DNA of 64,000 bases from Candidatus Solirubrobacter pratensis (lineage in GTDB: Bacteria > Actinomycetota > Thermoleophilia > Solirubrobacterales > Solirubrobacteraceae): NCBI RefSeq assembly GCF_000425945.1, contig NZ_KE384480.1, positions 900,599 to 964,598 on the forward strand, read 5' to 3'. Both the position numbers and the translations under genes were made by a program. The notes under the pieces were generated by a model. That model was not told the DNA's origin. It ran no database searches and worked only from the letters and a program-made list of their open reading frames with translations. Every line of letters starts with the position of its first letter. Within the stretch, counting starts at the first letter, position 1. Below are positions 38,786 through 63,317 of the stretch, piece after piece.

Positions 38786-41700
38786 TTACGGCGTGGTGCT
38801 CGCGAGCGTGAAGACGATCGTCTTCGCGTAGTTGCCCGTGAGCAGCGGCTCGCCGGCGCCGATCGTCTGCTTGAGATCGATCGACACCGGGTCGCCGCTG
38901 ACCGCCGCCGGGTAGGAGAGCAGCGTCAACGGCGCGCCGCTCGTGCTCAGCGGCGCGAACGCCCCGCCGCCCGTCCCGACCGTGCTGCCGGCCTTGACCT
39001 GCACCGGCTGGGCGAGGGCGGAGGCGCCGTTGACGAGACGGCCGGTGGCCGTCGCGCTCGGGTCGCGCACCGTCAGCGTCGCCGCGCTGGCGCTGGTCGT
39101 CACCGTCGCCGTGAGGGCGGCGGTGTAGTCCTTGGCCACGTTCGGCACGAACGTGCCGAAGCCCGGCGTCGTCCCGAGCGACAGCGCGAGCACGCCCGGC
39201 ACGGTGCCGCCGATCGTGACCGGCTGGTCGACGTGATCGCCGCCGCCCGGCTGCTTGACGACCACGCTCAGCGTCGCGCTGGCCGTGCCGCCCTTGCCGT
39301 CGGACACCGTCACCTTGACCGCGCGCGTCCCCGAGGTCGCGAACTGATGGCTCGGGTTCTGCTGGGTCGAGGTGCCGCCGTCGGCGAAGTCCCACGCGTA
39401 CGTGAGCGTGTCGCCGTCGGCATCGGTGCCGGTCGCGGTGAACGCGACCGTGTCGCCGACCGTGATGTCACCGGCCGGCGTGCGCGACGCGGTGACCGTC
39501 GGAGGCTGGTTGGCCCCCGTCACGCCGCATGCCGCGGACGGCGTCGCGCCGGCGGCGATCTCGATGCCGGCCTCGATGTGCGTGAGGAACCCGGCTTCGG
39601 AGAACGACTGCTGCGTGTGGCCCATGCCCGTGTACCACGAGCGGCCGCCGTCGTACTTCTGGCACCACGAGATCGGATGGTCATCATCCGTCGTGTTGTC
39701 GTCCTGCTCGTCGTAGGTCGCCTCGTCCATCTTCAGCAGGACGTGCACGCCGGTGGTGTTGCGCGGGCTGTAATCCGCGTCACCGACCGTCGCGAACAGC
39801 GGCGACTTGTAGTTGTACCACTCGTCCGTGCGCGTCCAGCGCGCCGGCAGGCCGGCGTCGGACGGGTCGTTGGCGTCCTCGACGAGCACATCCGCGGTGG
39901 GCGTCCCGGACGGGTGGTTGCGGAAGTACGACCCGACCAGCTTGCCGTACCACGGCCACGAGTACTCCGTGTCGGCCGCGGCGTGGATGCCGGTGTAGCC
40001 GCCGCCCGCGCGGATGAAGCGCTCGAACGCCGCCTGCTGCGCGTCGTTGAGCACGTCGCCCGTGGTGGACAGCCAGATCACCGTGTCGTAGTGCGAGAGC
40101 ACGGCGTCGGTGAACAGCGAAGCATCCTCGGTCGCGTCGACCTGGAAGTTCTTCTGCTGTCCGAGCTGCTTGATCGCCGCGATGCCCTGCGGGATCGAGT
40201 CGTGCCGGAACCCGGCGGTCTTGGAGAACACGAGCGCCCGGAAGCGCGCGTTCGGGTCATCCGCCGCCAGCACCTGCACGGGGATCGTCTTCGTCGCCGA
40301 GCCGCCCTTGCCGTCGGTCACCGTCAGCTTGACGCTGCGGTCGCCGGCGGTGGTGAACGTCGTGCTCGCGTTGGCTCCGGTGGCGTCGGCCGTGCCGTCG
40401 CCGTCGAAGTCCCACGAGTACGTGAGCGGATCGTTCTGGGCGTCCGTCGCCGCGGCCGTGAACGAGGTCGCCAGCGGGGCGAAGCCCGCCGTCGGCGTCG
40501 CCGAGGCCGTGGTGATCACCGGGCTGGTGTTGCCGCCGCCGTCGCAGCCGAGGCTGCCGTTGACCTTGAAGTAGTCGAACGTGGCGGTCTGGCCCGAGCC
40601 GTCGACGCCGGCCGTGTAGAGGCCGAAGCGCGGCGCGGCGGAGGCGAAGGGCACCGTGCCCACCGTCTGCCACGTCGTGCCGTCGAACGACATCTCGGCC
40701 AGGTAGTTGGTGCCCGACTTGGTGAGCCGCATCCAGATCGCGGTCACGCCCGCCGGGACGTCCAGGTTCGGCTGGGGATTGATGATCGTCCCCGCCACCT
40801 TGGCGCGGATCTCGCTGCGGTTGATCCGCGTGTTGGTGGAGTCCGAGATCGCGTTGAACTTGACGTAGTTCTGATCGTCGGCCCAGATCAGGATTCCTCC
40901 CTGCTGGAAGGAGCCCTGCAGCGTCCACGCGCTCAGCTTCGTCTCGAGCACGTAGTCGGCGCCCGTGTGGTCGGCGGTCTGGAGGATGAAGTTCTTGTTG
41001 CCTCCATCCACGTCGGCCTTGACGGTCGTCATCTTCAGCGACCCGTTGGCGACGCTGTACAGGGTCGGATCCTCGCGGACGATCCCGTTCCAGCGCGTCT
41101 TGTCCAGGCTCGTGCCGGTGAAGTCGTCACCGGCGCCGCTCGAGCCGCCGCTGCCGGCGCTCGCGAGCGTGAACCAGTCGAACTTCGCCGTCACGTGCGT
41201 GGCGGCCGCGTTGTCGAGCCCGAAGAACCCGACCCGCGCGTTCGCGGGCAGTGCCGCGGGCTGGCCCGTCAGGGTCCAGTTGGTCCCGTCAGGCGAGTAG
41301 TAGCCGCGGATGTTCGTCCCGTCCGACTCGATCTTCATGTACCAGTCGGTCGGGAAGGCGGCCGTCAGCGTGGGGCCGCTGTCCGCCGCGGCGTTGCGGG
41401 CGACGCCCGCGACCTCGTTGATGAACTCGAAGTGCTCCTGCGGCGGGTCGGCGGTGCTCGTGGCCAGCCGGTCGAACTTCGTGTAGTTGTCGTCGTCGCC
41501 GTAGACGATCAGGCCCGCCTGGTGGTACTGGCGCGTACCCGCCTCGTTGACCTTGACCGTCGCCGTCCACGGCCCGGTCGGGGCCTGGCGCAGGACGATG
41601 TTCTTGGCGTTGTTGGAGTTGGTGTAGACGTCGCCGTTCTCGGTCGTGATGTTGGCGGTGCCGCCTGACACGACGAGGTTCTGGCTGCGCCGCACGACGC

Positions 41701-44521
41701 TCCAGCCGGCGTCCAGATCGGTCCCGTTGAAGTCGTCGCGGAACGTCGAGGCGCAGCTCGCGCCCGGCGTGACGACGACGGGGATCGTCCTGTCGGTCTT
41801 GCCGCCCTGCTTGTCGGTGACGGTCAGGGTGGCGTTGTAGGTGCCCGGGTTGACGTACGTGTACGTCGGATCCTCGAGCGTCGACGTGTCGGTCGTGATG
41901 CCGGGCACGCCGAAGTCCCACGCGTACGTGAGGTCGGTGGCCGGGCCGTCCGGATCGGTCGCCGTGGTCTCGAACTTGACGTTCAGCGGCGCCGCGCCGG
42001 TCGCCGGCGTCGGGGTGACCTGGACGTCAGGCGAGGCGGTGACGGCCGCGCCCTTGCCGATGAACTCGATCCAGTTGAGGTTCATCAGCGAGCCGGTGTC
42101 GCCGGGCTTGCGGAACACGACGAACAGCTCGTGCGTCCCGGTCGGCGGGTTCGTCAGCTGCAGCGTGACGTCCTTGAACGTCTGCCAGCCTCCGGTCGGC
42201 GTGATGTTGGCCGTCGCGCCGACGAGCGGGCCGGTGCCGGAGTCGAGGTGCAGCTCGATCGTCCCGCCGGAGCCGGCGGACGCGACGCGGAAGCGGACCG
42301 CGTTGATGTCCTGCAGCGACACCGGGGTGTAGGAGACGTAGTCGCCGTCCTCGATGAAGCCGATGTTCTGGCCGCCGCCGGCGCTGTCGGAGGTCGTCTC
42401 CTTCTGCACGCCGGGATCGCCGGTCGTCGCGGCGCCGGGGATGCGGCCGGTGCTCGCGTAGAACTCCGCCTGCTTGGTCTTGGGCTGGAGGATCGCCTGG
42501 GCACGGCCGGTGATCGGCACGATGCCGCCGGGGCCGCCCTTGTCGGTGTACGTGACGCTGAGGACGGTGAACGTGTTGGCCTCAGGCCCGTGGCCGCTCG
42601 TCAGGCCGGTCTTGAACGTGCCGGTGCAGCCGGTCTGCTGCGACAGGTCGTGGGCGTGCTCGTCGTGGCCGAGCGCGATCGTGACGTGCACGTCGTCGCA
42701 CGAGATGCCGGCGCCGGTGGTGCCGTCCTCGGGGTCGGTGACCGTGATCGAGTACGGGACCGTGTCGGTGAACGACGCGAACTCGCCGTCGGCGGGCGTC
42801 TGGATCGTCACGACCGGGCCGCGGTTGCCGACCGTGATCGGCACGTTCGCGACGGCGGTCATGCCGTCGGCGTCCTTGACGGTCAGCTTGGCCGTGTAGG
42901 CGCCGTTCTGGGTGTAGGTGTACGTCGGGGCGGCCTCGGCGGAGTCCTGCGTGCCGTCGCCGTTGAAGTCCCACGAGTACGTGAGCGCGGTGCCCTCGGG
43001 GTCGCTCGAGCCGGCGCTCGAGAAGTGGACCGTGAGCGGCGCGAGGCCGGTCGTCGTGTCGCCCGTGGCCTTCGCGACCGGCGACTTGTTGCCCGACACG
43101 TAATCGATGCGGTAGACGCCCGAGTCGGCGTTGTCGCCGCCGAAGCCCGAGCCCCACTCGATCACATAGAGCGCGCCGTCAGGACCGAAGTCGATGTCCA
43201 TGGGCCGCTTGTAGCCGGTCCCGAGTGCGAACGGGCTGACCTTCGTCATCGCGCCGGAGGCGTCGAGGTCGGCAGTCTTGATCCAGCCGTTGTTCCACTC
43301 GCCGATGAACCACTTGTTGTCGTAGTACTGCGGGAACTTGCGGTCCGACGACAGCGAGGGATCGAAGTGGTAGCGCGGGCCGCCCATCGGGGCGCCGCCG
43401 GTGCCGAGGTCCGGCGTGAAGCGCGGATCCTGCTCGGTGTAGCCCATCCACGCGGTCGCGGGGATCGCGGGAGGCAGGTTCGTCCGGCCCGTGTTGTTCG
43501 GCGAGTTGTTGACCGGGGCGTCGCAGTTGAACTTGGGCCCTGAGACGCCGGTCGCGAAGTCGTAGTCGTTGTACGGCGTGTTGGCCCGGATGCAGTAGGG
43601 CCAGCCGTAGTTGCCGGACTTCGTGAGCACGTTGTACTCGACGCTGCCCTGCGGGCCGCGGTTCGGGTTCGTCGTGCCGGCGTCCGGGCCGTAGTCGGCG
43701 CTCAGGACCCAGCCGGTCGTCTGGTCGACCGTGAACCGGAACGGGTTGCGGAAGCCCATGCCGTAGATCTCCGGCCGGGTCTTGTTGTCGGTGTCCTGAT
43801 CCTCAGGGAAGAGGTTTCCGGCGGGGATCGTGTAGGTGGTGCCGACGCCAGGCGGACCGAGCGGGATCTCCATCGGCTTGATCCGCAGGATCTTGCCGTT
43901 GAGGTCGTTCGTGTTGCCCGCGGTGCGCTGGGAGTCCCAGTACTCGCGGCCCGGGCGCTCGTCGAGCGGGGCGAAGCCGTCCGAGTCGAACGGGTTCGTA
44001 TTGTCGCCCGTCGAGATGTAGAGGCTGCCGTCGGGGCCGAAGTACAGCGACCCGGACGAGTGGCAGCACTCCGCCGTCTGATGCTGGAACGTGAGGATCT
44101 TCTGCTCGGAGCTCAGGTCCAGCGTGTCCCCGTTCATCTTGAAGCGGGAGACCACCTGCGTGAGCGTGTTGTCCGGCAGCTGGGAGTAGAACAGGTAGAC
44201 CCACTTGCTGAACGCGAAGTCCGGCGCCAGCTGCAGGCCGAGCAGGCCGTTCTCCTGGCTGCGGGTGACCGGGATGGTTCCGGCGGTGACCGTCTGCTGC
44301 GTGTCGGGCTTCCAGACCTGCAGGCGCCCGTCGCGCTCGATGTAGAAGACGCGCCCGTCGGGGGCGACGTCCAGCTCCATCGGATTCTGCGTGTTGTCGT
44401 CGAGCGTGACCTTCTGGAAGTCGGAAGCGGTCGGCGTCTGCGCGAACGCCGTCCCTCCTCCCAAGACCAGCCCGAACAGCACGGCAAAGCAGGCGGCAAT
44501 TGCCGCCTTCGTCCGACCCAT
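38786..44521 (-). CDS. Giant secreted PQQ-type sugar dehydrogenase / CBM6 / ThuA multimodular protein (1911 aa)
   Basis: Exported (signal peptide residues 1-27). Domains in order: glucose/sorbosone dehydrogenase beta-propeller of the PQQ type (about 35-475; MELDVAPDGRVFYIERDG, ENGLLGLQLAPDF, GPDGALYVIEWG), PKD (477-565), Ig-like (567-680), CBM6-like (684-830; QAEFYASTGR, IEDGDYVSY), PKD (830-920), two DUF1349/laminin-G-like domains (924-1110; 1132-1324), PKD (1332-1420), ThuA (about 1425-1660; LVFSKTAGFRHDS, AGGGYTGIHAAADTEY, RTDEWYNY), PKD (1670-1755) and a C-terminal domain (1765-1911) shared with three other genes in the window. It should oxidise and bind sugars outside the cell. GGTAGGAGGAG lies before ATG 44521. 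Terminators follow. Confidence 0.87.
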   Translation of the reverse strand: MGRTKAAIAACFAVLFGLVLGGGTAFAQTPTASDFQKVTLDDNTQNPMELDVAPDGRVFYIERDGRLQVWKPDTQQTVTAGTIPVTRSQENGLLGLQLAPDFAFSKWVYLFYSQLPDNTLTQVVSRFKMNGDTLDLSSEQKILTFQHQTAECCHSSGSLYFGPDGSLYISTGDNTNPFDSDGFAPLDERPGREYWDSQRTAGNTNDLNGKILRIKPMEIPLGPPGVGTTYTIPAGNLFPEDQDTDNKTRPEIYGMGFRNPFRFTVDQTTGWVLSADYGPDAGTTNPNRGPQGSVEYNVLTKSGNYGWPYCIRANTPYNDYDFATGVSGPKFNCDAPVNNSPNNTGRTNLPPAIPATAWMGYTEQDPRFTPDLGTGGAPMGGPRYHFDPSLSSDRKFPQYYDNKWFIGEWNNGWIKTADLDASGAMTKVSPFALGTGYKRPMDIDFGPDGALYVIEWGSGFGGDNADSGVYRIDYVSGNKSPVAKATGDTTTGLAPLTVHFSSAGSSDPEGTALTYSWDFNGDGTQDSAEAAPTYTYTQNGAYTAKLTVKDADGMTAVANVPITVGNRGPVVTIQTPADGEFASFTDTVPYSITVTDPEDGTTGAGISCDDVHVTIALGHDEHAHDLSQQTGCTGTFKTGLTSGHGPEANTFTVLSVTYTDKGGPGGIVPITGRAQAILQPKTKQAEFYASTGRIPGAATTGDPGVQKETTSDSAGGGQNIGFIEDGDYVSYTPVSLQDINAVRFRVASAGSGGTIELHLDSGTGPLVGATANITPTGGWQTFKDVTLQLTNPPTGTHELFVVFRKPGDTGSLMNLNWIEFIGKGAAVTASPDVQVTPTPATGAAPLNVKFETTATDPDGPATDLTYAWDFGVPGITTDTSTLEDPTYTYVNPGTYNATLTVTDKQGGKTDRTIPVVVTPGASCASTFRDDFNGTDLDAGWSVVRRSQNLVVSGGTANITTENGDVYTNSNNAKNIVLRQAPTGPWTATVKVNEAGTRQYHQAGLIVYGDDDNYTKFDRLATSTADPPQEHFEFINEVAGVARNAAADSGPTLTAAFPTDWYMKIESDGTNIRGYYSPDGTNWTLTGQPAALPANARVGFFGLDNAAATHVTAKFDWFTLASAGSGGSSGAGDDFTGTSLDKTRWNGIVREDPTLYSVANGSLKMTTVKADVDGGNKNFILQTADHTGADYVLETKLSAWTLQGSFQQGGILIWADDQNYVKFNAISDSTNTRINRSEIRAKVAGTIINPQPNLDVPAGVTAIWMRLTKSGTNYLAEMSFDGTTWQTVGTVPFASAAPRFGLYTAGVDGSGQTATFDYFKVNGSLGCDGGGNTSPVITTASATPTAGFAPLATSFTAAATDAQNDPLTYSWDFDGDGTADATGANASTTFTTAGDRSVKLTVTDGKGGSATKTIPVQVLAADDPNARFRALVFSKTAGFRHDSIPQGIAAIKQLGQQKNFQVDATEDASLFTDAVLSHYDTVIWLSTTGDVLNDAQQAAFERFIRAGGGYTGIHAAADTEYSWPWYGKLVGSYFRNHPSGTPTADVLVEDANDPSDAGLPARWTRTDEWYNYKSPLFATVGDADYSPRNTTGVHVLLKMDEATYDEQDDNTTDDDHPISWCQKYDGGRSWYTGMGHTQQSFSEAGFLTHIEAGIEIAAGATPSAACGVTGANQPPTVTASRTPAGDITVGDTVAFTATGTDADGDTLTYAWDFADGGTSTQQNPSHQFATSGTRAVKVTVSDGKGGTASATLSVVVKQPGGGDHVDQPVTIGGTVPGVLALSLGTTPGFGTFVPNVAKDYTAALTATVTTSASAATLTVRDPSATATGRLVNGASALAQPVQVKAGSTVGTGGGAFAPLSTSGAPLTLLSYPAAVSGDPVSIDLKQTIGAGEPLLTGNYAKTIVFTLASTTP

Positions 44522-45661: not shown

Positions 45662-46840
45662 CTAGCGGTAGCTGACGCGCTCCTTGCGTCCCGCCTCGGC
45701 GGAGCGCAGCATCGCGTCGCAGATCTCGGCGGCCCGGTAGCCGTCCTCGAACGTGGCGCCGTGCGGCGCGACGTCCGTGTCATCCCGGATCGCCGTCAGG
45801 AAGTGGTGCAGCTCGTGGACGAACGTGTGCTCCCACCCGATCATGTGGCCCTGCGGCCACCAGTGCTGCCAGAACGGATGGTCGGCCTCGGACACTAGGA
45901 CGGTGCGGAAGCCCTGGGCGAGGTCGCCGGGCTTGGAGCCGGCGAAGTGGACCTGCAGCTCGTTCAGGCGCTCCATGTCGAACGCGATCGAGCCCTTGGA
46001 GCCGTTGATCTCGAACGTCAGCGCGTTCTTGCGGCCGGGGCAGAAGCGCGAGGCCTCGATGATGCCCACGGCGCCGGAGGAGAAGTCGACGAGTGCCTCG
46101 ACGGCGTCGTCGACGTCGACCGGCTCCCCCTCGCGGCTCTTGACGAACGTGCGCGTCGTCGCCGACACGGCATCGATCTCGCCGACGAGGTAGCGGGCGA
46201 GGTCGATCACGTGCGCGCCGAGGTCGCCGAGCGAGCCCGAGCCGGCGACCGACTTGTCCAGCCGCCACACCATCGGAAAGTCGGCGTCGACGATCCACTC
46301 CTGCAGGTAGAAGCCGCGGAAGTGGTGGATCTCGCCGAGGTCGCCGGACTCGATGATCTGGCGCGCCAGCCGGACCGCCGGCACGAAGCGGTAGTTGAAG
46401 GCGCACATGTGCTTGACGCCGGCGGCCTCCACGCGCTGCCACGTCTCGTACGCCTCGTTCGCGTCGCGCCCGAGCGGCTTCTCGCACACGACGTGCTTGC
46501 CGGCCTCGGCCGCCGCGATCGACGGCTCGGCGTGGAAGTCGTTCGTGCTCGAGTTGTCGAACACCTGGACGCGCGGGTCCTCGACCAGCTTGCGCCAGTC
46601 GGTCAGGTGCTCGGCGAAGCCGTAGCGGCGTGCAGCGCCGGCCACCCCCTCGGGGTTGCGGCCGGCGATCGCGACGAGCTGCGGCATCAGCGGCGGTGGC
46701 CACGTCATGTAGGCGAGCGTCTTGTACGCGTTCGAGTGGGCCTTGCCCATGAACCCGTACCCGAGCATGCCGATCCCGACGGTCGGGATGTCCTCCCCTC
46801 CGGAGGACTCGCCCATCGTGACGAAGCCGACCTTGCTCAC
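45662..46840 (-). CDS. Gfo/Idh/MocA-family oxidoreductase
   Basis: A 392-aa NAD(P)-dependent sugar dehydrogenase. The N-terminal Rossmann fold has [14 protein letters not shown] (the GxGxxG loop) and the conserved EKPLGRD with its catalytic-site lysine; the C-terminal domain has [14 protein letters not shown] with the usual Asp/His and ends [17 protein letters not shown]. Family members oxidise sugars or cyclitols, often at C3, as in ThuB and 3-keto-glycoside pathways. GTG 46840 has GGGAGG 4 nt upstream and overlaps the preceding stop as GTGA; ATG 46816 is an alternative. Last reliably coupled gene of the catabolic operon. Confidence 0.9.
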
Positions 46841-47841
46841 GATGCCTCCCGGGCGAAGGCGGCGTCGAACGCGACGGTGGAGGGCGAGAAGTCCGTCCGG
46901 CGCACGAACGCGAGCGCGTCGGGCGCGCCCCAGTCGCGGTCCATCCCCGAGTCCTCCCACTCGATCGAGAGCGGGCCCTGGTAGCCGATCCGGTTCAGCG
47001 CCCGGAACAGCGACTCGAAGTCGACGTCCCCGTGGCCGGGGGAGACGAAGTCCCAGCCGCGGCCGGGGGTCCCGAAGTCCAGGTGGCCCCCGAGGATCGA
47101 CGAGCGCCCGTCGAGGCGCCGGATCGAGTCCTTGACGTGCACGTGGTAGACGCGGTCGCCGAACTCGGTCACGAACGCCGCCGAGTCCAGGAACTGGTGC
47201 TCGAAGTGGCTCGGGTCGAAGTTGATGCCGAAGCCGGGACGATGACCGAGCGCGGCCAGCGCCTTGCGCGTGGTCGCGAAGTCGTAGGCGATCTCGGTGG
47301 GGTGGACCTCGAGCGCGAAGCGCACGCCCTCGGCGTCGAAGACGTCGATGATCGGGCTCCAGCGCTCGGCGAAGTCCACGTAACCCTGCTCGACCGTCTC
47401 GAAGTCGTTGGGCGGGAAGGAGTAGAGGAGGTGCCAGATGCCTGAGCCGGTGAAGCCGGTCACGACCTCCACGCCGAGCTGCGCGGCCGCGCGCGCGGTG
47501 TCCTTCATGCGCTCTGCGGCGCGCCGGCGCACGCCCTCGGGGTCGCCGTCGCCCCACACCTCGGGCGGCAGCACGGCCTGGTGGCGGGCGTCGATGCGGT
47601 CGCACACGGCCTGGCCGGTGAGGTGCGCGCCGATCGCCCAGCAGTTGAGGCCGTTGCGCTCCAGCACCTCGCGGCGCTCGGCGCAGTAGCCGGGGTCCGA
47701 GAGCGCCTGCGCGACGTCGAAGTGGTCGCCCCAGGTGGCGAGCTCGAGCCCGTCGAACTCCCACTCGCCGCACTTGGCCGCAAGCGCCTCCAGCGGAAGA
47801 TCGGCCCACTGGCCGGTGAACAGGGTGACGGGTCGTGTCAT
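46837..47841 (-). CDS. Sugar phosphate isomerase/epimerase (TIM barrel)
   Basis: A 334-aa AP-endonuclease-2-like TIM barrel with complete metal ligands: Glu in FALEVHPTE, Asp and His in [11 protein letters not shown], His in HVHVKDS and Glu in SIEWEDSG. Its length and [14 protein letters not shown] match enzymes encoded beside Gfo/Idh/MocA dehydrogenases, where such barrels isomerise or cleave keto sugars. ATG 47841 has an ideal GGAGGAG 7 nt upstream. Its stop overlaps the dehydrogenase start. Eleven bp separate it from the DeoR gene. Confidence 0.88.
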
Positions 47842-48638: not shown

Positions 48639-48643
48639 CGTGC

Positions 48644-53461: not shown

Positions 53462-56287
53462 ATGCGAAGGCAAGGACCTCGCGTGCTCGCGATGGCCGCG
53501 GTCGCCGGGACGGCGCTCGCCGCGGGCGCCCCGGCGGCGCTGGCCCAGGGGCCGGACACGACCCCGCCGGTGCTCAACGCCGCGACGCTGCCGGCGCTCG
53601 CGCCGCCGTCGTGGCTCGCCCCGGGCCAGACGGGTCCCGTCGCCAACGGCAACAACGGGTGGTACACGACGACGGCCGGCACCCCCGCCCACCCGTCGGT
53701 GATGATCACGCTCTCGGCGACCGATGACGTGGCCGTCGCGAAGTTCCAGTACTCGACGAACAACGGCGCTTCCTACACGGACGTCCCCGTCGCGACGCCC
53801 GGCCCGAGCGCGACCGCGCAGGTCGAGGATGTCACCGAAGGCGCCACGACCTTCCGCTACCGGGCGGTCGACACATCCGGCAACGTGTCCCAGGACGGCG
53901 CCGCCGCCACCGTGAACGGCGGCCTGAACCAGCCGGCGGCCGCCGGCGCGACCGCGATCCGGCTCGCCAGCACGTCCGGCCGCGCGGCCGGCGACCGGCT
54001 CACCATCGACACCGGCGCCAACCAGGAGACGGCGATCATCGCCTCGATCGTCACTCCCGCTCCCGCGTCGCCGAACCCGAACGTCACCCTCACGGCGCCG
54101 CTGGCCAAGGCGCACGCCGCGGCCGCGACCGTGACGGCCAACCCGCCCTACCGCACCGTCGCGGTGTCGCTGGACACGCGCGCGCCCAGCGCGACGCTCC
54201 CGGCCTCGGTCGTCAATTTCCACGTCGGCCACAGCGTCACGCTGAACCCGACCCGCACGGATCCCACCCCCGGCTCCGGGCAGACCGCCGCGCTCGACAC
54301 GTGGACCGACGGCGTCTGGACCTACCCGCTTCCGCTGGACGTGTCCAAGCTCTCGCTCGGCAAGCACACGTGGGCGCTGCACGTCGGCGACAACGCAGGC
54401 CTCGGCACGAAGATCACGTGGACGCTGATGGTGACGACGTCCTTCACGGACATCGACGCGCTGCTGGGCCGCTCCGGCCTCGCCGCCGGCGACGTGACCA
54501 CGCTGCGCGCCGCGCTGAGCGCCGCGAAGGCGTCCGACACCGCCGGCGACAAGGTCGCGGCGATCGACGGCCTGCAGGCGTTCATCGGCCAGGTCAACGC
54601 GCTCGTGCCCGCGGGCGACGCCCGCAACCTGCTCGTCACCGACGCGCAGGACGTCATCCGCCAGGAGCGCGGCCTGCCGGGTCCGGACGAGACCGGCATC
54701 GGCGCGGTCTCGGAGCCGATGGCCGGCGCCCCGCGCCACAACCAGCAGGTCCCGACGGCGCCGTCGCACAACGCGAACGCGACGTTCAAGGTGCTCGTCT
54801 TCGCGAACAACCCCGGCGACTACCGTCACGAGTCGATCGAGGACGCCGCCGTCCTGATCCAGCAGCTCGGCAAGCAGTACGGCTTCGACGTCGACATCTG
54901 GGACAAGGCGCGCCCGGACATCTCCACGCCCGACACGCCGTTCTCGAGCGCCGCGAACCTCACGCAGTACAAGGTCCTGATCGGCGACTCGTCGGTCGGC
55001 AACAACACGCTGGTGACGGCCTTCACCATGAAGAACGGCACGGTCGTGAACGAGCAGGCGGCGTTCCAGGCCTACATGGAGGCCGGCGGCGGCTACATGG
55101 CGCTGCACGCCGCGGACGATTCGCTGCACAACTGGCAGTGGTACAAGGACGCGATGGGCGGCCTGTTCCAGGGCCACCCGACCAACGCCGGCGGCTTCGG
55201 CTCCAACTGCAGCACGTGCTACTGGGCCGAGCTGATCACCGAGGACGGCAGCCACCCGGCGACGCAGGGCCTGCCGGCGCGCTTCCCGGTCGCGGACGAG
55301 CTGTACCACTTCGACCGCAAGCCGCGTCCGTTCGTGCACCCGCTGCTGCTCCTGAACGAGGCGACCTACGCGACCGCGATGGGCGTCAACTCCAGCGGCA
55401 ACCTCGAGGGCGGCGACCACCCGATCGTCTGGTGTCGCAACTTCGACGGCGGCCGCTGGTTCGTCAACGTCCTCGGCCACAACCACACGCTGTTCACCTC
55501 GACGCCCTGGTTCCAGAAGATGGTCATCGACGGCCTGCTCTGGGCCGCCGGCAAGACCGAGGGCAACTGCGTCACCTACACCGACGTCAAGACGCAGATC
55601 TCGCAGCTGCAGACCGCGGGCGGGCTGACCTCGACGGCGGCCGGCGCGGCCTCCGCGGCGGTCGACGCGGGCTACGCCAAGTACGCGACGCTGACCCAGA
55701 CCGGCTACAGCGGCGCGCTCGGCGACATCGCGTCGATCCAGGCGATCGCCGACGACCCGGCCTCGGGCGACGCGGCGGCGCGGCTGAAGCTGCGGACGTC
55801 CGCGCAGCAGCTCAAGGACTGGATGCTGGTGCTCCTCGGCTCCAAGTCGGCGACCGTCGGCGCGGGCGGCACCGTGCCCGCGACGCTCGCGCTCTCGCTC
55901 GGCGGCACGCCGTCCTTCGGGACGTTCCTGCCCGGCATCGACAAGCCGTACGACGCGAGCACGACCGCGAACGTGATCTCCACCGGGGGCGACGCGGCGC
56001 TGAGCGTGGCTGACCCGAGCAGCGTGGCGACGGGCCATCTGGTCAACGGCTCGTTCTCGCTGCCTCAGAGCGTGCAGGCCAAGGCGCTCAGCCCGCTCGG
56101 CGCCGGCGGCGACTTCGCGCCCGTCGGCGGTGCGAGCGCCCCGACCCGGCTGCTCACCTACAGCGCCCCGGCGTCGAACGACACCGTGGCGCTGACGTTC
56201 CGGCAGGCGATCGGCGCGACCGACGCCCTCAGGACCGGGACCTACAGCAAGACCCTGACGTTCACGCTGTCGACCACCACGCCGTAG
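53462..56287 (+). CDS. Secreted ThuA multimodular protein (941 aa)
   Basis: Exported (signal peptide to about residue 29). After an Ig-like domain with DTTPPVLNAATLPAL and ATDDVAVAKFQYSTNNG (35-150), a beta-rich linker domain (155-230), a region with PSATLPASVV and a short helical segment (335-400), the ThuA domain spans about 442-705: FKVLVFANNPGDYRHESIED, AGGGYMALHAADDSLHNW, GDHPIVWCRNFDGGRWFVNV. A helical spacer follows (710-795) and the shared C-terminal domain (799-941). ThuA is a class I glutamine-amidotransferase-like fold tied to trehalose and keto-sugar use. AAGGAGGAGAGGG stands before ATG 53462. A terminator follows. Confidence 0.87.
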   Translation: MRRQGPRVLAMAAVAGTALAAGAPAALAQGPDTTPPVLNAATLPALAPPSWLAPGQTGPVANGNNGWYTTTAGTPAHPSVMITLSATDDVAVAKFQYSTNNGASYTDVPVATPGPSATAQVEDVTEGATTFRYRAVDTSGNVSQDGAAATVNGGLNQPAAAGATAIRLASTSGRAAGDRLTIDTGANQETAIIASIVTPAPASPNPNVTLTAPLAKAHAAAATVTANPPYRTVAVSLDTRAPSATLPASVVNFHVGHSVTLNPTRTDPTPGSGQTAALDTWTDGVWTYPLPLDVSKLSLGKHTWALHVGDNAGLGTKITWTLMVTTSFTDIDALLGRSGLAAGDVTTLRAALSAAKASDTAGDKVAAIDGLQAFIGQVNALVPAGDARNLLVTDAQDVIRQERGLPGPDETGIGAVSEPMAGAPRHNQQVPTAPSHNANATFKVLVFANNPGDYRHESIEDAAVLIQQLGKQYGFDVDIWDKARPDISTPDTPFSSAANLTQYKVLIGDSSVGNNTLVTAFTMKNGTVVNEQAAFQAYMEAGGGYMALHAADDSLHNWQWYKDAMGGLFQGHPTNAGGFGSNCSTCYWAELITEDGSHPATQGLPARFPVADELYHFDRKPRPFVHPLLLLNEATYATAMGVNSSGNLEGGDHPIVWCRNFDGGRWFVNVLGHNHTLFTSTPWFQKMVIDGLLWAAGKTEGNCVTYTDVKTQISQLQTAGGLTSTAAGAASAAVDAGYAKYATLTQTGYSGALGDIASIQAIADDPASGDAAARLKLRTSAQQLKDWMLVLLGSKSATVGAGGTVPATLALSLGGTPSFGTFLPGIDKPYDASTTANVISTGGDAALSVADPSSVATGHLVNGSFSLPQSVQAKALSPLGAGGDFAPVGGASAPTRLLTYSAPASNDTVALTFRQAIGATDALRTGTYSKTLTFTLSTTTP

Positions 56288-56331: not shown

Positions 56332-56370
56332 CGGCGGCATGTTTTGACCCCGTTCGGAGGAGGGATAGGG

Positions 56371-59300
56371 ATGGGAAGGTCCTTGGCGGCTCGTCCGTCG
56401 ATGTCGCGCAGGCTGCGGTCTGCGCTCGCCTTGCTCGGCGCGCTGATCGTCGGGAGCGCCCTCGGAGCGTCGCCGGCGCTCGCGAACGCCGGGAAGGTGA
56501 TGGTCTTCACCGGGACGGCGGGAACGCCGAATCCCGTCAGCTCCGACGCCGCGAGCGCGATCCAGGCGCTCGGCGCGGCGAACGACTTCACCGTCGACGT
56601 CTCCGGTGACGCGACGCAGATCAACGCCGCCAACCTCGGCGGCTACCGCGCCGTCGTGTTCGTCAACTCGGCGGGCGACGTGCTCAACGCCGCGCAGGAG
56701 GCCGACCTCCAGAGCTACGTGCAGGGCGGCGGCGGCTTCGTCGGCATCGGCGAGACCGCCACGCTGGAGCAGGGCGGCAACGCCTTCTTCAACACGCTGA
56801 TCGGCCTGACCGGCAACCCGCGCGTCACCGGCAGCGCCGCGTCGAGCTCCCAGGACGTCGAGTTCCTCGACCGCGTGCACCCCGCTTCACGCAACGACCC
56901 GGCCCTGTGGAAGGGGGTGACCGAGAAGTGGTACACGTGGGCGAGCAACCCGACGGGCACCGTCCAGACGCTCGCGCGCGTGCGCTTCAACACGATCCCC
57001 GACGGCACGTCGGTCACCAACGACGCGATCCAGCGCTGGACGGGCGCCACCAACACCAACCAGCCGCAGCTCGAGCGTGCGGCCGCGTGGTGCCGTGACA
57101 TCCAGCAGGGCCGCTCGTTCTACACCGAGCTCGGCAGCACCACGGCGGCGTGGGGCCAGGACAACGTGAGCAAGCACGTGCTGGGCGGCATCGAGTGGGC
57201 GGCGGGCATGGTCCGCGGCAACTGCAAGGCCGCGATCACGTCGAACTACTCGAACGTCCGCCTCACGCCTGTCAACCCCGCGAACTCCAACCAGTACAAC
57301 GGCGAGCTGACGAACACGGCGATCGCCGACAACGGCCTGGTCTTCTACACCGGCCGCGCGATCTGCTTCGCCGGCATGACGCAGATCGGCAACTGGGACG
57401 CCCCGAACACGGGCCTTGGCTGCGGCACCGTGCACGTGTGGGACCCGAGCGCCGGCGGCAGCTCCTACGACCGCGATCCGGCGAAGGTCAGCATGGTCGC
57501 GAACCTCTCGGTGTTCGGCGCCAAGGGCAGCGCAGTCGAGGCCGGCCAGTCGTCGACCGCGGAGGAGGGCCTGCTGGCGATCGCGCTGGACCCGAAGTTC
57601 ACCAAGGGCCGGCCGTACGTCTACCTGGAGTACTTCCCGTACTACGGCGGCGAGCAGGGCAAGGACACGACGCCCAAGCTCGGCGGCGGGTTCGACCGGC
57701 GCCGCTACCGCGGCGAGCGCCGCCTCTCGCGCTTCACCTACGACCCCGTCGGCAAGACGTTCGTGCCGGGGTCGGAGAAGGTGATCATGTCGTGGGACCA
57801 GTCGGTCTACTCCTGCTGCCACGAGGGCGCCTCCGCGGCGTTCGACTCCAAGGGCAACCTGTACGTCTCCAACGGCGACAACATCGGCAACTACGCCAAC
57901 TCCAACACCGGCGGCTACACCAACCCCGACCCGGTGCAGACCGCCCCGTGCCCCGGCGCCGCCGCGACGACGCACTGCGCGCAGACGCCGGCCGACCAGC
58001 GTCCGGCCGACACGATCCTGTCCAGCTTCGGCGACGCCCGCGGCACGTCCGGCAACACCAACAGCTACGACGGCAAGATCATCCGCATCCACCCGTTGGA
58101 CGATCCCGGGGACACGCCGGGGCCGGGGAGCACGTACACGATCCCGGACGCGAGCGCGCCGAACGGCGCGAACCTGTTCCCGGTCGACAGCCAGGCCGTG
58201 AAGGACGGCAAGGCCAAGCCGGAGATCTTCGCGATGGGCGTGCGCAACGCGTACACGATCCACATCGACAAGAAGACCGACGCGATCACGACCGCATGGG
58301 TCGGACCCGACCAGGGCACCGACAGCCCGATCTGGGGCACGGCCAAGACCGAGAACGCGACGATGATGAACTCGGCGGGCAACTGGGGCTGGCCGTACTG
58401 CCAGGCGGGCAACCGCTGGGACTATCGCGCGAAGCTGCCCTCGGCGGTCTACCAGGGCAACGACCCGGGCGTGGCCACCGCGGCGCCCTTCGGGCATCCG
58501 GGGACCGTCGGCGGCGGCACCGACGGCCAGACGGGCGGCTTCTGGGACTGCCGCGGCGAAGTCCTCAACGACTCGCCGTACAACACCGGCCTCACGCTGT
58601 TGCCCAAGCCCAAGCCGGTGAACCTCTGGTACGGGCCGCACGGCGGTTGTTACAACTACCCGCTGAACGCCAACGGCGTCGGCCTGTACACGAGCAACAA
58701 CAACAGCCCGTCGCCGCAGATCTGGCGCAGCTGCCCGTGGCTCGGCGTGAGCGGCGGCCAGGCGCCGATGGACGGCGGCATCTACCGCAAGCCGCCGGGC
58801 GACAACCCGAACGCGTGGCCCGCGTACTGGGACGGCCGCTGGTTCCTCGGCGACTTCGCCGGGCCGACCAACGTCCGGCACGCGCTGCTGATGGATCCGG
58901 CGACGCAGTTCAGCGGCGGTCAGCCGATCTCGGTCGACTCGCTGCTCGGGATCATCCCCTCGTCCCTGCTCGGAGCGCAGCGGCTCATCAGCATGAACTT
59001 CGGGCCTGACGGCGCGCTGTACATCGCCAGCTACGGCGGCAGCTACTACGCCTCCAACAACAACAACAACGGGATCTGGCGCTTCGCCTACAACGGCGGC
59101 CCGGACACCCCCGGCGCGGATCCGCAGTCGACGGTCTCCGGCGCCCGCGCCCAGTTCTCGATCGGCAAGTCCGGCGGCGTCTCCTACAAGTGGGACTTCG
59201 GCGACGGAACGACGTCGACCGAGACCAGCCCGTCGCACGCGTACGGCTCGAGCGGCACCAAGCAGGCGAAGCTGACGGTCACCTACGCCGATGGCGCGAC

Positions 59301-59790
59301 CGACAGCAAGACGGTCGCCGTCGCGGTCGATCCGAGCGCGTTCGCGACCGCCACGACCGACGTCGCGGCGACCGTGCCGACGCAGCTGAGCCTGTCGATC
59401 GCCGGCGCGCCGTCGTTCGGCGAGCTGCAGCCGTCGCTCGCGAAGGACTACAGCGCCTCGGCGTCGGCGACGGTCATGGCGACCAGCGGCGACGCGGCGC
59501 TCACGGTGAACGACGCGAGCGCGACGACGACCGGGCGACTGGTCAACCAGGGCTACGCGCTCACCTCGCCGGTGCAGGCCAAGGCGACCTCGGGCACCAC
59601 CGGCGTGGGCGCGGCGTTCCAGGACGTCCGCGGCTCGGCGAACCCGACCTCGCTGCTGACCTACTCGGGCCCGACCGCCTCGGACCCGGTCGCGCTGGAC
59701 TTCCAGCAGCACGTCAGCGTCACCGACGCGCTGCGGGCCGGCACGTACAGCAAGACGCTGACGTTCACGCTGTCGACCTCGACACCGTAA
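56371..59790 (+). CDS. Secreted ThuA / PQQ-type sugar dehydrogenase fusion (1139 aa)
   Basis: Exported (signal region up to about residue 47). A ThuA domain comes first (48-290; KVMVFTGTAGTPNPVSSDAA, GGGGFVGIGETATLEQGG), then a glucose/sorbosone dehydrogenase-like propeller (about 290-905; EEGLLAIALDPKFTKGRPYVYLEY quoted in part as LLAIALDPKFTKGRPYVYL, SWDQSVYSCCHEGA, MNFGPDGALYIASYGG), PKD (910-990) and the shared C-terminal domain (993-1139). The order ThuA-dehydrogenase is the reverse of the 1911-aa protein. ATG 56371 with GGAGGAGGG upstream; ATG 56401 just before the signal core is possible. A terminator follows. Confidence 0.87.
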   Translation: MGRSLAARPSMSRRLRSALALLGALIVGSALGASPALANAGKVMVFTGTAGTPNPVSSDAASAIQALGAANDFTVDVSGDATQINAANLGGYRAVVFVNSAGDVLNAAQEADLQSYVQGGGGFVGIGETATLEQGGNAFFNTLIGLTGNPRVTGSAASSSQDVEFLDRVHPASRNDPALWKGVTEKWYTWASNPTGTVQTLARVRFNTIPDGTSVTNDAIQRWTGATNTNQPQLERAAAWCRDIQQGRSFYTELGSTTAAWGQDNVSKHVLGGIEWAAGMVRGNCKAAITSNYSNVRLTPVNPANSNQYNGELTNTAIADNGLVFYTGRAICFAGMTQIGNWDAPNTGLGCGTVHVWDPSAGGSSYDRDPAKVSMVANLSVFGAKGSAVEAGQSSTAEEGLLAIALDPKFTKGRPYVYLEYFPYYGGEQGKDTTPKLGGGFDRRRYRGERRLSRFTYDPVGKTFVPGSEKVIMSWDQSVYSCCHEGASAAFDSKGNLYVSNGDNIGNYANSNTGGYTNPDPVQTAPCPGAAATTHCAQTPADQRPADTILSSFGDARGTSGNTNSYDGKIIRIHPLDDPGDTPGPGSTYTIPDASAPNGANLFPVDSQAVKDGKAKPEIFAMGVRNAYTIHIDKKTDAITTAWVGPDQGTDSPIWGTAKTENATMMNSAGNWGWPYCQAGNRWDYRAKLPSAVYQGNDPGVATAAPFGHPGTVGGGTDGQTGGFWDCRGEVLNDSPYNTGLTLLPKPKPVNLWYGPHGGCYNYPLNANGVGLYTSNNNSPSPQIWRSCPWLGVSGGQAPMDGGIYRKPPGDNPNAWPAYWDGRWFLGDFAGPTNVRHALLMDPATQFSGGQPISVDSLLGIIPSSLLGAQRLISMNFGPDGALYIASYGGSYYASNNNNNGIWRFAYNGGPDTPGADPQSTVSGARAQFSIGKSGGVSYKWDFGDGTTSTETSPSHAYGSSGTKQAKLTVTYADGATDSKTVAVAVDPSAFATATTDVAATVPTQLSLSIAGAPSFGELQPSLAKDYSASASATVMATSGDAALTVNDASATTTGRLVNQGYALTSPVQAKATSGTTGVGAAFQDVRGSANPTSLLTYSGPTASDPVALDFQQHVSVTDALRAGTYSKTLTFTLSTSTP

Positions 59791-59909: not shown

Positions 59910-62900
59910 GTGTTGGGTCTGAGGAAACGGCACTTGCCATGGCTGGCGTGCGCGATACTCGCGCTGATCGGGATCCCTTCCTACGCACTCGGCAAGGAGA
60001 AGCGCGCCGCTCCGCCGCCGATGACGGCGACCATGGGCGCCTTCGACACCGGCTTCTGGGACGTGACGAAGGCGAAGGACGACCCGACCGCGACGACGGT
60101 GACGATCGCCCCGGGCGGCACGGTCAACTTCCGCTACCTGGCCGCCGACGGCGCGCTGCCCCACAACGTGGTGTTCGGCGACGGCAGCAACCCCTCGCTG
60201 TCGCTGCCGCAGCCGACGGGATGCACGCAGATCAACCCCGTGCCGACGATCCCGACGTCCATCCTCCCGATCCCGCCGCTCCCGCAGTACGCGCAGGCCC
60301 CGGCCTGGAACGGCACGTGCACGTTCAACACGGCCGGCGCCTACAAGTTCTATTGCTCCGCGCACCCGCTGGCGATGCAGGGCGAGGTGATCGTCTCGGC
60401 GACGGGCGCCAACGCGAACCCGACCGTGACGGCGGGGCGCACGCCGACCGGCGACGTGCCCAGCGGCACGCCGGTCACGTTCTCGGCGACCGGCGCCGAC
60501 GCCGACGGGGACACGATCTCCTACTCATGGGACTTCGGAGATGGTGACTCCGGCGCGGGCGCGAGCGCGACGCACACGTACCCGCCGGCGGCATCGACCT
60601 ACCAGGCGGTCGTGACGGCTGACGACGGCCACGGCGGCACCGCGACCGCGACCGTGAGCGTCAAGATCGTCGCCGCCGCGCCCAACCAGAACCCGACGGT
60701 GAGCGCTTCGCGCACCCCGACCGGGAACGTGACGGCGGGCGCGTCGGTCAACTTCAGCGCCACGGGCAGCGACCCGGACGGCGACACGCTCACCTACGCG
60801 TGGGACTTCGGCGACACCGGCAGCTCGGCTTCGCAGAACATCAGCCACACCTACGCCGCCGCCGGCGCCTACACGGCCAAGGTGACGGTCTCCGACGGCA
60901 AGGGCGGCACGGCCTCGGCCACGCTCCCGATCACCGTCACCAGCGGGTCGTGCCCGCCCGGCTACCGCGACGACTTCACCGGCACCGCGCTGGATCCATC
61001 GTGGACCGTCCTGCGGCCTGACGCGACGAACGGCGGCGTGACCGTCGGCAACGGCGTCGTCTCGATCCCGACCGGCAACGGCGACATCTACCAGACGACC
61101 AACACCGCGACGAACCTCGTCCTGCGGACCGCGCCGAGCGGCGCCTTCACGCTCACCGCGAAGATCAACCACCACGGCCTGACCCGCTATCAGCAGGGCG
61201 GGATCATCGTCTACGGCGACGACGACAACTACGTCAAGCTCGACCGCACGGCCACCAACAACGGCGGCACGGCGACGGAGTTCTTCGAGTTCGTCCAGGA
61301 GCTGGCCGGCACCCCGCGCAACGGGACGACCGACCACACCGCGACGATCCCGGCCGCCTTCCCGGCGGACTTCTACCTGCGCATCGTGTGGGACGGGACG
61401 AACCTGTCCGGCGCGTACTCGCAGGACGGCTCCTCTTGGACCACCGTCGGCACCAACTCGACGGCGTTCCCCGCCAATCCCAAGGTCGGCATCTTCGCGC
61501 TCTCCAACGGCGCGACGACGTTCGTGACCCCGACGTTCGACTACGTCGCCATCGACGGCCCGCCGTGCGGCAGCAACGCCGTCCCGGTGATCTCGTCGGC
61601 CACGGCGGACAAGACGTCGGGGATCGCCCCGCTGCCGGTGAACCTCACCGCGGCGGCGACCGACGCCGACAGCGACGCGCTCACCTACGCGTGGGACTTC
61701 GGCGACGGCGCGACGGGGACCGGGGCGACCGCATCGCACACCTACAGCGCCGCCGGCACCTACAGCGCCAAGCTGACGGTCTCCGACGGCAAGGGCGGCT
61801 CGGCCACCAAGACCGTCGCGGTCAACGTGCTTGCGCCCGACACCCCGGGCTCATCGTTCCGGGCGCTCGTCTTCTCCAAGACGGCCGTCTTCCGGCACGA
61901 CAGCATCCCGGCGGGCATCGCCGCCATCAAGAGCCTCGGCACGACGAGCAACTTCCAGGTCGACGCCACCGAGGACGGCTCGATGTTCCGGGACGACATC
62001 CTGTCCCATTACAAGGTCGTGATCTTCCTGTCGACGACCGGTGACGTGCTGACCGACGACCAGCAGGCGGCGTTCGAGCGCTACGTCCGCGCCGGCGGCG
62101 GCTACGTGGGCATCCACTCCGCGGCCGACACCGAATACAAGTGGGCCTGGTACGGCCAGCTGGTGGGCGCGTACTTCCGCAACCACCCGAACGGGACGCC
62201 CGCCGCGAACGTCCTCGTCGAGGACACGACCGACCCGTCGGACGCCGGCCTGCCGGCCACCTGGGCGCGGACGGACGAGTGGTACAACTACCAATCGCCG
62301 GTCAACCCGGTGGAGAACGGCGGCGGAGACGACTACGACCCGCGCAACACGACCGGGATCCACGTCCTGTTGAAGGTGGACGAGTCGAGCTACGCCGAGG
62401 CCGACGGCAGCGACGGCGTCGACGACGATCACCCGATCTCGTGGTGCCACCGCTACGACGGCGGCCGCTCGTGGTACACGGGCATGGGCCACACGCAGGC
62501 GTCCTTCCAGGAGGCCGGCTTCCTGTCGCACATCCTCGCCGGCATCCGCATCGCCGCCGGCGTGCTTCCGTCCGCCGCGTGCGGCGTCTCGGCGGTCAAC
62601 CGGAACCCGACGGTGACCACGTCGCGCACGCCGTCCGGCAGCGTGACGACGGGCACCTCGATCGCCTTCACGGCCGTCGGCACCGACGCCGACGGCGACG
62701 CGCTCACGTACGCGTGGGACTTCGGCGACACCGGCACCGCGACCGGGCAGAGCCCGACGCACGCGTACGCCGCGGCGGGCGTGTACGACGCGAAGGTCAC
62801 GGTCTCGGACGGCAAGGGCGGCACCGGCAGCGCGACGCTGACGATCACCGTGACCGGCCCGGTCGAGACGCATACCGACGTCCCGAAGGACGTCACGGCG

Positions 62901-63317
62901 ACCGTCGCGAACAAGATCGCGCTGTCACTCGCCCCGACCGCGACGTTCGGGCCGATCACCCCGGGCGTGACGAAGGACTACGTCGCGACGGTCACCGGCA
63001 CGGTGACGAGCACCAGCGGCGCGGCGCAGCTCACGGTGGCGGACGCCGGCACGAAGTCGACGGGGCACCTGGTCAACGACCAGTACGCCCTCGCGGCGCC
63101 GCTGCAGGCGCAGGCCACGAGCCCGGTCCAGCCGAGCTCCGCCTTCGCCGCCGTGACCGGGACCGACAACCCGCTGGTGTTGCTCACCTACCACGACCCG
63201 GTCTCGATGGACGCGGTCAGCGTGGGCCTCCAGCAGACGGTGAGCGGGAGCGAGCTGCTGCGGGCGGGCACCTACCACAAGACCCTGACGTTCACGCTCT
63301 CCACGACGACGCCGTAA
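59910..63317 (+). CDS. Secreted cupredoxin / PKD / ThuA multimodular protein (1135 aa)
   Basis: Exported (signal peptide to about residue 28). A plastocyanin-like cupredoxin domain (40-168) has an N-terminal His (ALPHNVVFGDG) and the FYCSAHPLAMQG loop, giving a Cys-His-Met type-1 copper site. Then follow PKD (167-255), PKD (259-345), DUF1349/laminin-G-like (347-552), PKD (555-645), ThuA (647-895; LVFSKTAVFRHDSIPAG), PKD (896-985) and the shared C-terminal domain (986-1135). The cupredoxin could accept electrons from the PQQ-type dehydrogenases nearby. GGAGG 7 nt before GTG 59910 decides the start. Confidence 0.87.
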   Translation: MLGLRKRHLPWLACAILALIGIPSYALGKEKRAAPPPMTATMGAFDTGFWDVTKAKDDPTATTVTIAPGGTVNFRYLAADGALPHNVVFGDGSNPSLSLPQPTGCTQINPVPTIPTSILPIPPLPQYAQAPAWNGTCTFNTAGAYKFYCSAHPLAMQGEVIVSATGANANPTVTAGRTPTGDVPSGTPVTFSATGADADGDTISYSWDFGDGDSGAGASATHTYPPAASTYQAVVTADDGHGGTATATVSVKIVAAAPNQNPTVSASRTPTGNVTAGASVNFSATGSDPDGDTLTYAWDFGDTGSSASQNISHTYAAAGAYTAKVTVSDGKGGTASATLPITVTSGSCPPGYRDDFTGTALDPSWTVLRPDATNGGVTVGNGVVSIPTGNGDIYQTTNTATNLVLRTAPSGAFTLTAKINHHGLTRYQQGGIIVYGDDDNYVKLDRTATNNGGTATEFFEFVQELAGTPRNGTTDHTATIPAAFPADFYLRIVWDGTNLSGAYSQDGSSWTTVGTNSTAFPANPKVGIFALSNGATTFVTPTFDYVAIDGPPCGSNAVPVISSATADKTSGIAPLPVNLTAAATDADSDALTYAWDFGDGATGTGATASHTYSAAGTYSAKLTVSDGKGGSATKTVAVNVLAPDTPGSSFRALVFSKTAVFRHDSIPAGIAAIKSLGTTSNFQVDATEDGSMFRDDILSHYKVVIFLSTTGDVLTDDQQAAFERYVRAGGGYVGIHSAADTEYKWAWYGQLVGAYFRNHPNGTPAANVLVEDTTDPSDAGLPATWARTDEWYNYQSPVNPVENGGGDDYDPRNTTGIHVLLKVDESSYAEADGSDGVDDDHPISWCHRYDGGRSWYTGMGHTQASFQEAGFLSHILAGIRIAAGVLPSAACGVSAVNRNPTVTTSRTPSGSVTTGTSIAFTAVGTDADGDALTYAWDFGDTGTATGQSPTHAYAAAGVYDAKVTVSDGKGGTGSATLTITVTGPVETHTDVPKDVTATVANKIALSLAPTATFGPITPGVTKDYVATVTGTVTSTSGAAQLTVADAGTKSTGHLVNDQYALAAPLQAQATSPVQPSSAFAAVTGTDNPLVLLTYHDPVSMDAVSVGLQQTVSGSELLRAGTYHKTLTFTLSTTTP

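Follow-up and report, generated by a model that had tools for sequence, protein, structure and literature searches.

A shared C-terminal domain of Solirubrobacter exoproteins as a candidate WxL-like surface-docking tail

Why should four large exoproteins encoded in one region of a soil bacterium's genome end in the same domain, and what might that domain do for them? The question is raised by a 64,000-nt stretch of DNA from Candidatus Solirubrobacter pratensis (NZ_KE384480.1:900,599-964,598, assembly GCF_000425945.1; genome G000, 6.64 Mb in 28 contigs), the whole of which is called the window here. A preliminary description of this DNA, made from the sequence alone, had noted the shared C-termini and proposed that they are a WxL-like module fixing the proteins to the cell wall. 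We find that these C-termini belong to one real domain family, far larger than the window and apparently undescribed, to which we refer as the FxL tail. The four open reading frames and their ends are as first reported, and the proteins, designated A to D, have the following features.

38786-44521, minus strand: protein A, 1911 aa, with a signal-peptide-like start, GSDH, four PKD domains, CBM6, GH43_C2/DUF1349, ThuA and the C-terminal domain
38789-39217, minus strand: long-form C-terminal domain (residues 1769-1911) of protein A
53462-56287, plus strand: protein B, 941 aa, with a signal-peptide-like start, ThuA and the C-terminal domain
55859-56284, plus strand: long-form C-terminal domain (residues 800-941) of protein B
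56344-59790, plus strand: protein C, 1148 aa, with a signal-peptide-like start, ThuA, GSDH, PKD and the C-terminal domain
59359-59787, plus strand: long-form C-terminal domain (residues 1006-1148) of protein C, for which an AlphaFold2 model was made (covering 59350-59787)
59910-63317, plus strand: protein D, 1135 aa, with a signal-peptide-like start, a plastocyanin-like domain, four PKD domains, GH43_C2/DUF1349, ThuA and the C-terminal domain
62889-63314, plus strand: long-form C-terminal domain (residues 994-1135) of protein D

The homology of the C-termini, about 140 residues long, is clear: when the last 160 residues of each protein were compared by BLAST, all six pairs aligned over 126-140 residues with 43.6-52.4% identity (E 2.0e-38 to 1.6e-21), and 42 columns of their 147-column four-way alignment do not vary. 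The C-terminal motifs that had been singled out by eye are present in A to D, with the qualification that one of them, the [HR]LVN block, is found in the window four but is tied to the long form of the domain only. The statement that everything before the shared region differs proved too strong for these four proteins, as by Pfam ThuA is common to all of them, PKD to A, C, and D, GH43_C2/DUF1349 to A and D, and GSDH to A and C; it holds better across the genome. Signal-peptide-like N-termini were recognized by eye in all four, and no Pfam or NCBIfam model covers their shared C-terminal region.

A profile built from the four window domains gave 106 match rows at E<=1 in the S. pratensis genome. 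In the stretches fetched around these matches, 73 frames match the FxL profile, 70 of them distinct (three are duplicates), and in 65 of the 70 the match reaches the stop codon, the remaining five being fragments. The genome holds 58 complete copies, where complete denotes a copy that passed a match filter requiring extension to the stop; 24 are of the long form (at least 125 residues) and 34 of a short form that is without about 26 central columns. Residues Y-14, F-8, L-6, and P-1 are invariant in all 58 copies, as is a last motif reading FTL or FSL, while the first site is mostly DATL or DAAL. When the 58 copies were compared with Pfam, no match was better than E 0.013. Two further loci (G000:C3:357533-358024 and C10:128274-128996) have FxL copies split between frames and are likely decaying genes.

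The proteins that bear these tails are mostly unrelated exoenzymes sharing the one domain. Among 52 complete proteins, all 1326 pairs are similar within the tail, compared with 50 of 1326 outside it (E<=1e-5), and 43 of the 52 frames have a signal-peptide-like start by a crude score; as in WxL domains, the position on secreted proteins is extremely C-terminal. The Pfam families of the cargo were taken from 45 of the 52, and among the first 25 of the 55 families are peptidases S15, M14, M1, S9, S8, and M28, amidases, ThuA, GH92, GH3, and metallophosphatases.

To what extent is the tail found elsewhere? One genome per species was scanned for 84,980 species with the single pattern [LV]TFTLSTTxP, which favours close relatives, and of the 419 encoding stretches 78 distinct loci were kept, all from Solirubrobacter (S. 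soli, S. phytolaccae, S. taibaiensis, S. deserti, and Solirubrobacter sp. CPCC 204708). The wider actinobacterial search with FxL profiles that the preliminary description had proposed was productive, with matches in six of 296 genomes from the phylum (two of them weak), in 12 of 299 from the class, and in 15 of 146 from the family; the weak matches are in G069 (E 2.8e-4) and G010 (E 0.0026). Each of seven Solirubrobacter genomes has at least 27-29 matches. The class and family searches united give 18 FxL-bearing genomes, two of which, G503 and G649, are assemblies of one Solirubrobacter strain (CPCC 204708).

Strong evidence bearing on function comes from neighbouring genes. The S. pratensis genome encodes proteins of the WxLIP/DUF916 superfamily, members of which accompany WxL proteins, and two kinds are distinguished here.

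G000:C1:219128-220129: membrane-anchored WxLIP, 334 aa, with a signal peptide and a C-terminal hydrophobic segment
window 12346-13134, plus strand: soluble WxLIP-superfamily gene of the 'pap271' type, assigned by profile comparison, 262 aa, with a signal-peptide-like start and without a C-terminal hydrophobic segment

The membrane-anchored protein has the features of a WxLIP/DUF916 protein: a PF06030 match of 30.3 bits (cut-off 27.3), the signal peptide, a C-terminal helix and, in its N-terminal region, a counterpart of the motif NQIDKxxxYFDLK, which PMC10599100 describes as highly conserved in DUF916. Its gene lies 94 bases downstream of that for an FxL-bearing purple acid phosphatase, in the order HupE_UreJ_2 protein, phosphatase, WxLIP. 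The only other PF06030 match in the genome that we noted is a weak one on contig C3 (E 0.11). Homologs of this WxLIP were found in 23 of the 146 family genomes. Six of these (G000, G541, G426, G650, G651, and G652) have the same type as S. pratensis (E<=5.1e-45), and in all six the gene directly upstream carries an FxL tail (E 1e-48 to 1e-54). In 14 of the other 17 (G346, G411, G477, G505, G515, G576, G596, G597, G610, G612, G630, G631, G632, and G653) the actinobacterial WxL profile identified a WxL-like protein in that same position; ten of these proteins were checked and all match PF13731 at E<=0.01, seven of them over the cut-off. Neither tail is found upstream in G455, G598, and G620, the G598 locus being cut by a contig end. 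The preliminary description was aware of no described WxL system in Thermoleophilia; Pfam-recognizable WxL proteins do stand beside WxLIP genes both in the class and in the family of S. pratensis itself.

The two tails exchange with one another on a single enzyme. With its tail excluded, the S. pratensis phosphatase is 65% identical over 267 residues to a phosphatase of G161 and 49% identical to those of both G268 and G225. These three also precede a WxLIP gene but end in a WxL-like tail, detected at E 2e-21 to 1e-24 by a WxL profile that was not trained on them (with PF13731 one of them reaches E 0.012 and the other two do not match). In G541, G426, G650, G651, and G652 the orthologous phosphatase has an FxL tail instead, so that both tails occur on one enzyme next to one partner. 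The WxL-tailed orthologs, each before a WxLIP gene, are at the following loci.

L170:2-1270: phosphatase with a WxL-like tail
L173:2082-3296: phosphatase with a WxL-like tail
L191:2065-3294: phosphatase with a WxL-like tail

The soluble 'pap271' type is represented by three genes in the S. pratensis genome at E<=1, two on contig C12 and the one in the window. On C12 the gene for a small FxL protein consisting of the domain only (170-aa frame) stands before one for a soluble partner of 271 aa, and another soluble partner is encoded about 1 kb upstream. This locus (L071:9243-9752) and a second (L327:658-1197) both have a small domain-only FxL protein flanked by soluble WxLIP-like genes, and such proteins are a counterpart of the small WxL proteins. 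The soluble type matches the WxLIP set in hhalign with a probability of 92% directly and 96-98% when that set is pooled with its relatives. It has no PF06030 match, no family over cut-off (WxLIP_HBD reaches E 0.037 in one of 11) and no C-terminal membrane helix, and its placement in the superfamily follows from the hhalign match only.

When both partner types and two related ones are counted (four profiles), a partner gene lies on the same strand within 1.3 kb of an FxL gene in all 18 FxL-bearing genomes; the pairing with a DUF916 gene that is characteristic of WxL proteins is thereby seen in each of them, if not for the four window genes. One genome, G653, has both arrangements, with WxL beside WxLIP and an FxL tail beside a soluble partner. 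Two of the four profiles, C and E, derive from genes that had first been noted for their position next to FxL genes, and the support that is independent of location consequently consists of the six own-type WxLIP genes out of six and of G368, whose pairing was found by a genome-wide PF06030 search. Co-occurrence of FxL and WxLIP among the 146 family genomes gave a Fisher p of 0.003, which is only a hint as these genomes are related to each other.

A secreted protein of about 450 residues with the N-terminal motif VT[LY]W[AG]CHGP also adjoins FxL genes recurrently, several times between an FxL gene and a soluble partner, at the loci below.

L251:7402-8808: ~450-aa VT[LY]W[AG]CHGP protein
L253:5236-6597: ~450-aa VT[LY]W[AG]CHGP protein
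L253:9331-10689: ~450-aa VT[LY]W[AG]CHGP protein
L256:6676-7989: ~450-aa VT[LY]W[AG]CHGP protein

We believe that the FxL tail is probably a WxL-like, non-covalent surface-docking domain held by a partner of the WxLIP/DUF916 superfamily, perhaps with completion by a donor strand, and anchoring is the best-supported candidate function on this analysis. The proposal of a WxL-like C-terminal module accordingly finds strong support in gene context, through the pairing with WxLIP, the gene position equivalent to that of WxL, and the swap of tails on the phosphatase; the remote kinship with WxL that was part of it is merely suggested by sequence.

How could such docking work? From 58 aligned rows, AlphaFold2 predicts the tail of protein C to be a beta-sandwich with a mean pLDDT of 94.1 and a pTM of 0.86, comprising seven strands (13-18, 32-44, 49-55, 76-81, 100-105, 109-122, and 137-143), the last of them at the C-terminus. 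A Foldseek search of the PDB gave 787 matches (best E 0.005), the best 50 of which are headed by, and mainly consist of, chaperone-usher pilins (PapE, FimG/F, Csu, CfaB, PapA, and Caf1), plus TasA and CanA, with TM scores mostly of 0.35-0.55 for the pilins; a comparison with viral proteins gave none at E<=0.001. We take the pilin-type neighbours to be folds that are completed by a strand of another chain, and the FxL sandwich may likewise have an open groove. In the AlphaFold2 complexes of WxL and WxLIP presented in PMC10599100, a hairpin strand of WxLIP lies parallel to a WxL strand, fills a gap, and completes the sandwich. The words 'donor strand', 'chaperone', and 'PapD' do not occur in a term search of the main text of PMC10599100. 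From those models together with the pilin-like fold of the FxL tail we infer donor-strand docking.

In the mechanism that we envisage, the FxL tail would be a surface-sorting domain, so far undescribed, that is exported last and folds as a beta-sandwich, and a WxLIP/DUF916-superfamily partner would hold it at the cell surface without covalent linkage. There would be two kinds of partner, the membrane-anchored protein encoded on C1 and soluble, chaperone-like ones (one in the window and two on C12). Contact would most likely be made by donor-strand complementation of an incomplete immunoglobulin (Ig)/pilin-like sandwich, in which the C-terminal strand (TLTFTLSTT.P) would border the gap and a strand of the partner would fill it; a gap in this place would explain why the last strand is both exactly terminal and the most highly conserved. 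Solirubrobacter would then have spread the tail over dozens of exoenzymes (peptidases, amidases, glycosidases, phosphoesterases, and ThuA proteins), to give a degradative set held at the surface. More tentatively, WxL and FxL tails might together represent a Gram-positive counterpart of the chaperone-pilin systems, as incomplete Ig domains held through a donor strand by the DUF916 superfamily, and serve in Solirubrobacter as a general sorting system with membrane docks and soluble partners.

It is quite possible that the FxL tail is itself a true WxL domain, strongly diverged, that has lost its tryptophans (GWxL to DA[TA]L, WTL to FTL) and kept the fold and the partner. That it takes the position of WxL, both beside the partner gene and on the phosphatase, would be expected in that case, and a literal WTL does occur at the first site in small single-domain relatives from G272, G393, and G489, and was seen only there, the large form having DATL or DAAL. 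In PMC9772566 the two WxL motifs lie on neighbouring strands, whose FxL equivalents would be strands 49-55 and 137-143. The Pfam comparison that had been suggested speaks against membership: PF13731 matches none of the 58 FxL copies and none of eight further FxL-bearing proteins, and it gives no match at E<=10 in the entire S. pratensis genome, with a Lactococcus control positive. The pair of conserved W-x-L motifs of WxL domains is lacking in FxL tails. As there was no PF13731 match and the tryptophans are absent, we rejected assignment of the tail to the WxL family as it is now defined.

Profile-profile comparison gives a weak match between FxL and WxL, and we regard remote homology of the two as plausible. 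Against actinobacterial WxL, hhalign aligned 156 columns with a score of 27.0 (42%, E 4.2e-5), a score that was not reached by any of 363 control families from the upstream parts of FxL-bearing proteins (15.5 at most), by any of 30 other families (6.2 at most), or in 100 column and 100 block-5 shuffles; block-15 shuffles reached it once in 100. The probability depends greatly on the rows chosen, varying from 0.04 to 54% where the set included actinobacterial WxL, with 18% for the comparison made first. It fell to 3-16% when more diverse FxL members were added, which weakens the link, and was 0.2-0.6% against Firmicutes-only WxL, compared with 98.8% between the Firmicutes and Solirubrobacteraceae WxL sets themselves. 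The structure prediction that had been called for returned a confident beta-sandwich; 9i25_A, a solved WxL protein, does not appear in the best 50 of the 787 fold matches. Nor was 9i25_A found when the PDB was searched with the FxL profile, which gave chance matches only (best E 0.56); it was recovered with the Firmicutes WxL profile and not with the actinobacterial one.

Some observations concern WxL itself. More than 91% of WxL sequences are in Firmicutes according to PMC9772566. Among the 296 genomes of Actinomycetota we found WxLIP in 28 and WxL in 13, four of these over the cut-off (L164-L192 and L208-L225), and large WxL proteins also occur in actinobacterial genomes of 8-10 Mb. Viral contigs were scanned for WxL proteins and none was confirmed.

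Several findings weigh against docking to a WxLIP-type partner. For some 60 cargo genes in S. pratensis the searches recovered only four partner genes, and partner genes are present in two of the 53 stretches fetched around its FxL genes. Proteins A to D have no partner beside them; the nearest is 25 kb away, and this gene (12346-13134), which was missed in the preliminary description, stands alone at that same distance from the nearest FxL gene. G503 and G649 have the soluble type only, no membrane-anchored partner having been found there, and profiles C and E, as said, derive from neighbours. Against Firmicutes DUF916, hhalign gave 17% for the own-type WxLIP and 2.5% for the soluble type directly, and 96% with pooled sets. 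A single-sequence AlphaFold2 model of an S. soli WxLIP was poor (pLDDT 49), and only its C-terminal helix was used. The fold matches of the tail are weak, none of the 787 being at E<=0.001, and 9i25_A is missing from the best 50. It is also feasible that the soluble partners could be folding chaperones and not anchors. A search with the partner profile yielded no PapD-type chaperone, and we rejected homology of the partner with PapD for want of sequence support.

The scarcity of partners beside FxL genes in S. pratensis would fit a tail that is a module and binds carbohydrate or a wall polymer without any protein partner, the WxLIP-like neighbours being incidental, and modules of this type are common at the C-termini of hydrolases. 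We consider it unlikely, as the pairing extends to all 18 genomes, those with a single FxL gene included, and the tails swap beside the same WxLIP; moreover, the best Pfam match of the tail (E 0.013) is not a convincing one and no binding module is named among the best 50 PDB folds. It is distinctly improbable that the tails exchange donor strands mutually, in the manner of pilins, to form fibres or a surface lattice carrying the enzymes. Fibre-forming pilins, TasA, and CanA are indeed the neighbours in fold, and one G489 locus has two small domain-only genes, but pilus subunits do not resemble the cargo, which consists of large and varied enzymes, the model shows no obvious donor extension, its first 12 residues being without structure, and no PapD or usher family was over the cut-off in the proteins that were scanned, a scan that did not extend genome-wide. 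Lastly, a C-terminal signal for export or processing, removed in transit (type IX- or sortase-like), is highly improbable, for while a conserved C-terminus common to dozens of cargo proteins is the hallmark of such signals, the tails of A to D match no NCBIfam C-terminal sorting model and the region is confidently predicted to be a beta-sandwich, not a short motif plus helix. An LPXTG, PEP-CTERM, or type IX tail was rejected for the four window proteins, as none gave an NCBIfam match.

If the FxL tail is indeed docked by a WxLIP-type partner, a domain borne by dozens of exoenzymes per Solirubrobacter genome would gain a name and a testable function, and there would be an explanation as to how a soil bacterium of the Thermoleophilia retains its degradative enzymes on the cell. 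Non-covalent display of the WxL type would extend beyond Firmicutes with a far larger set of cargo, and the poorly understood interaction of WxL with WxLIP would gain a sharp donor-strand hypothesis. Literature searches, within the collection of papers covered, returned no paper on Solirubrobacter with a cell wall anchor or WxL, and a wider search had none naming Solirubrobacter among the matches listed; searches on WxL with Thermoleophilia, WxL with donor strand, and DUF916 with Actinobacteria disclosed no such system by title.

Between the exoprotein genes of the window, a run of minus-strand genes (45662-53195) appears by eye to be catabolic, its products resembling a sugar isomerase/epimerase, a Gfo/Idh-type oxidoreductase, a DeoR-type regulator, a creatininase-like protein, and an FAD-linked oxidase.

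Four known systems invite comparison. The C-terminal domains of the Bacteroidota type IX system are a case in which many unrelated exoproteins share one C-terminal sorting domain; they belong to other bacteria with another envelope, and their NCBIfam models have no match in the tails of A to D. Chaperone-usher pilins (PapE, FimG, Csu) resemble the FxL tail in having an Ig-like sandwich with the last strand C-terminal and, as proposed here, completion by a partner strand; they differ in that there is no sequence similarity, the fold scores are weak, the FxL cargo consists of enzymes, and the proteins scanned, short of a genome-wide search, included no recognized usher or PapD family. The gene neighbourhood of metallophosphatase and DUF916 in Actinomycetota is already in print, in that PMC12537917 reports both as frequent neighbours of Ang-2. 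The Ang-2/HupE-UreJ_2 neighbourhood depicted there is like the layout of the C1 locus, and the passages available from that paper make no mention of a C-terminal tail on the phosphatase, whereas the S. pratensis enzyme is tailed.

The closest likeness is to WxL and WxLIP (PF13731; DUF916-DUF3324, PF06030 and PF11797). Both systems have a beta-rich domain at the extreme C-terminus of exoproteins, a last strand reading Y-x-x-T-L-x-[W/F]-x-L, pairing with a WxLIP/DUF916 gene, and large proteins as well as small single-domain ones, and they exchange tails on the same phosphatase. They are unlike in that the FxL tail has no PF13731 match and no tryptophans in its large form, and in that WxL genes form one cluster of small WxL, large WxL, and WxLIP, whereas S. 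pratensis has about 58 cargo genes with the forms at separate loci (a large FxL gene with WxLIP on C1, the small FxL protein with soluble partners on C12). The FxL tail further differs in having a second, soluble type of partner and in its cargo, the catabolic enzymes of a soil bacterium.

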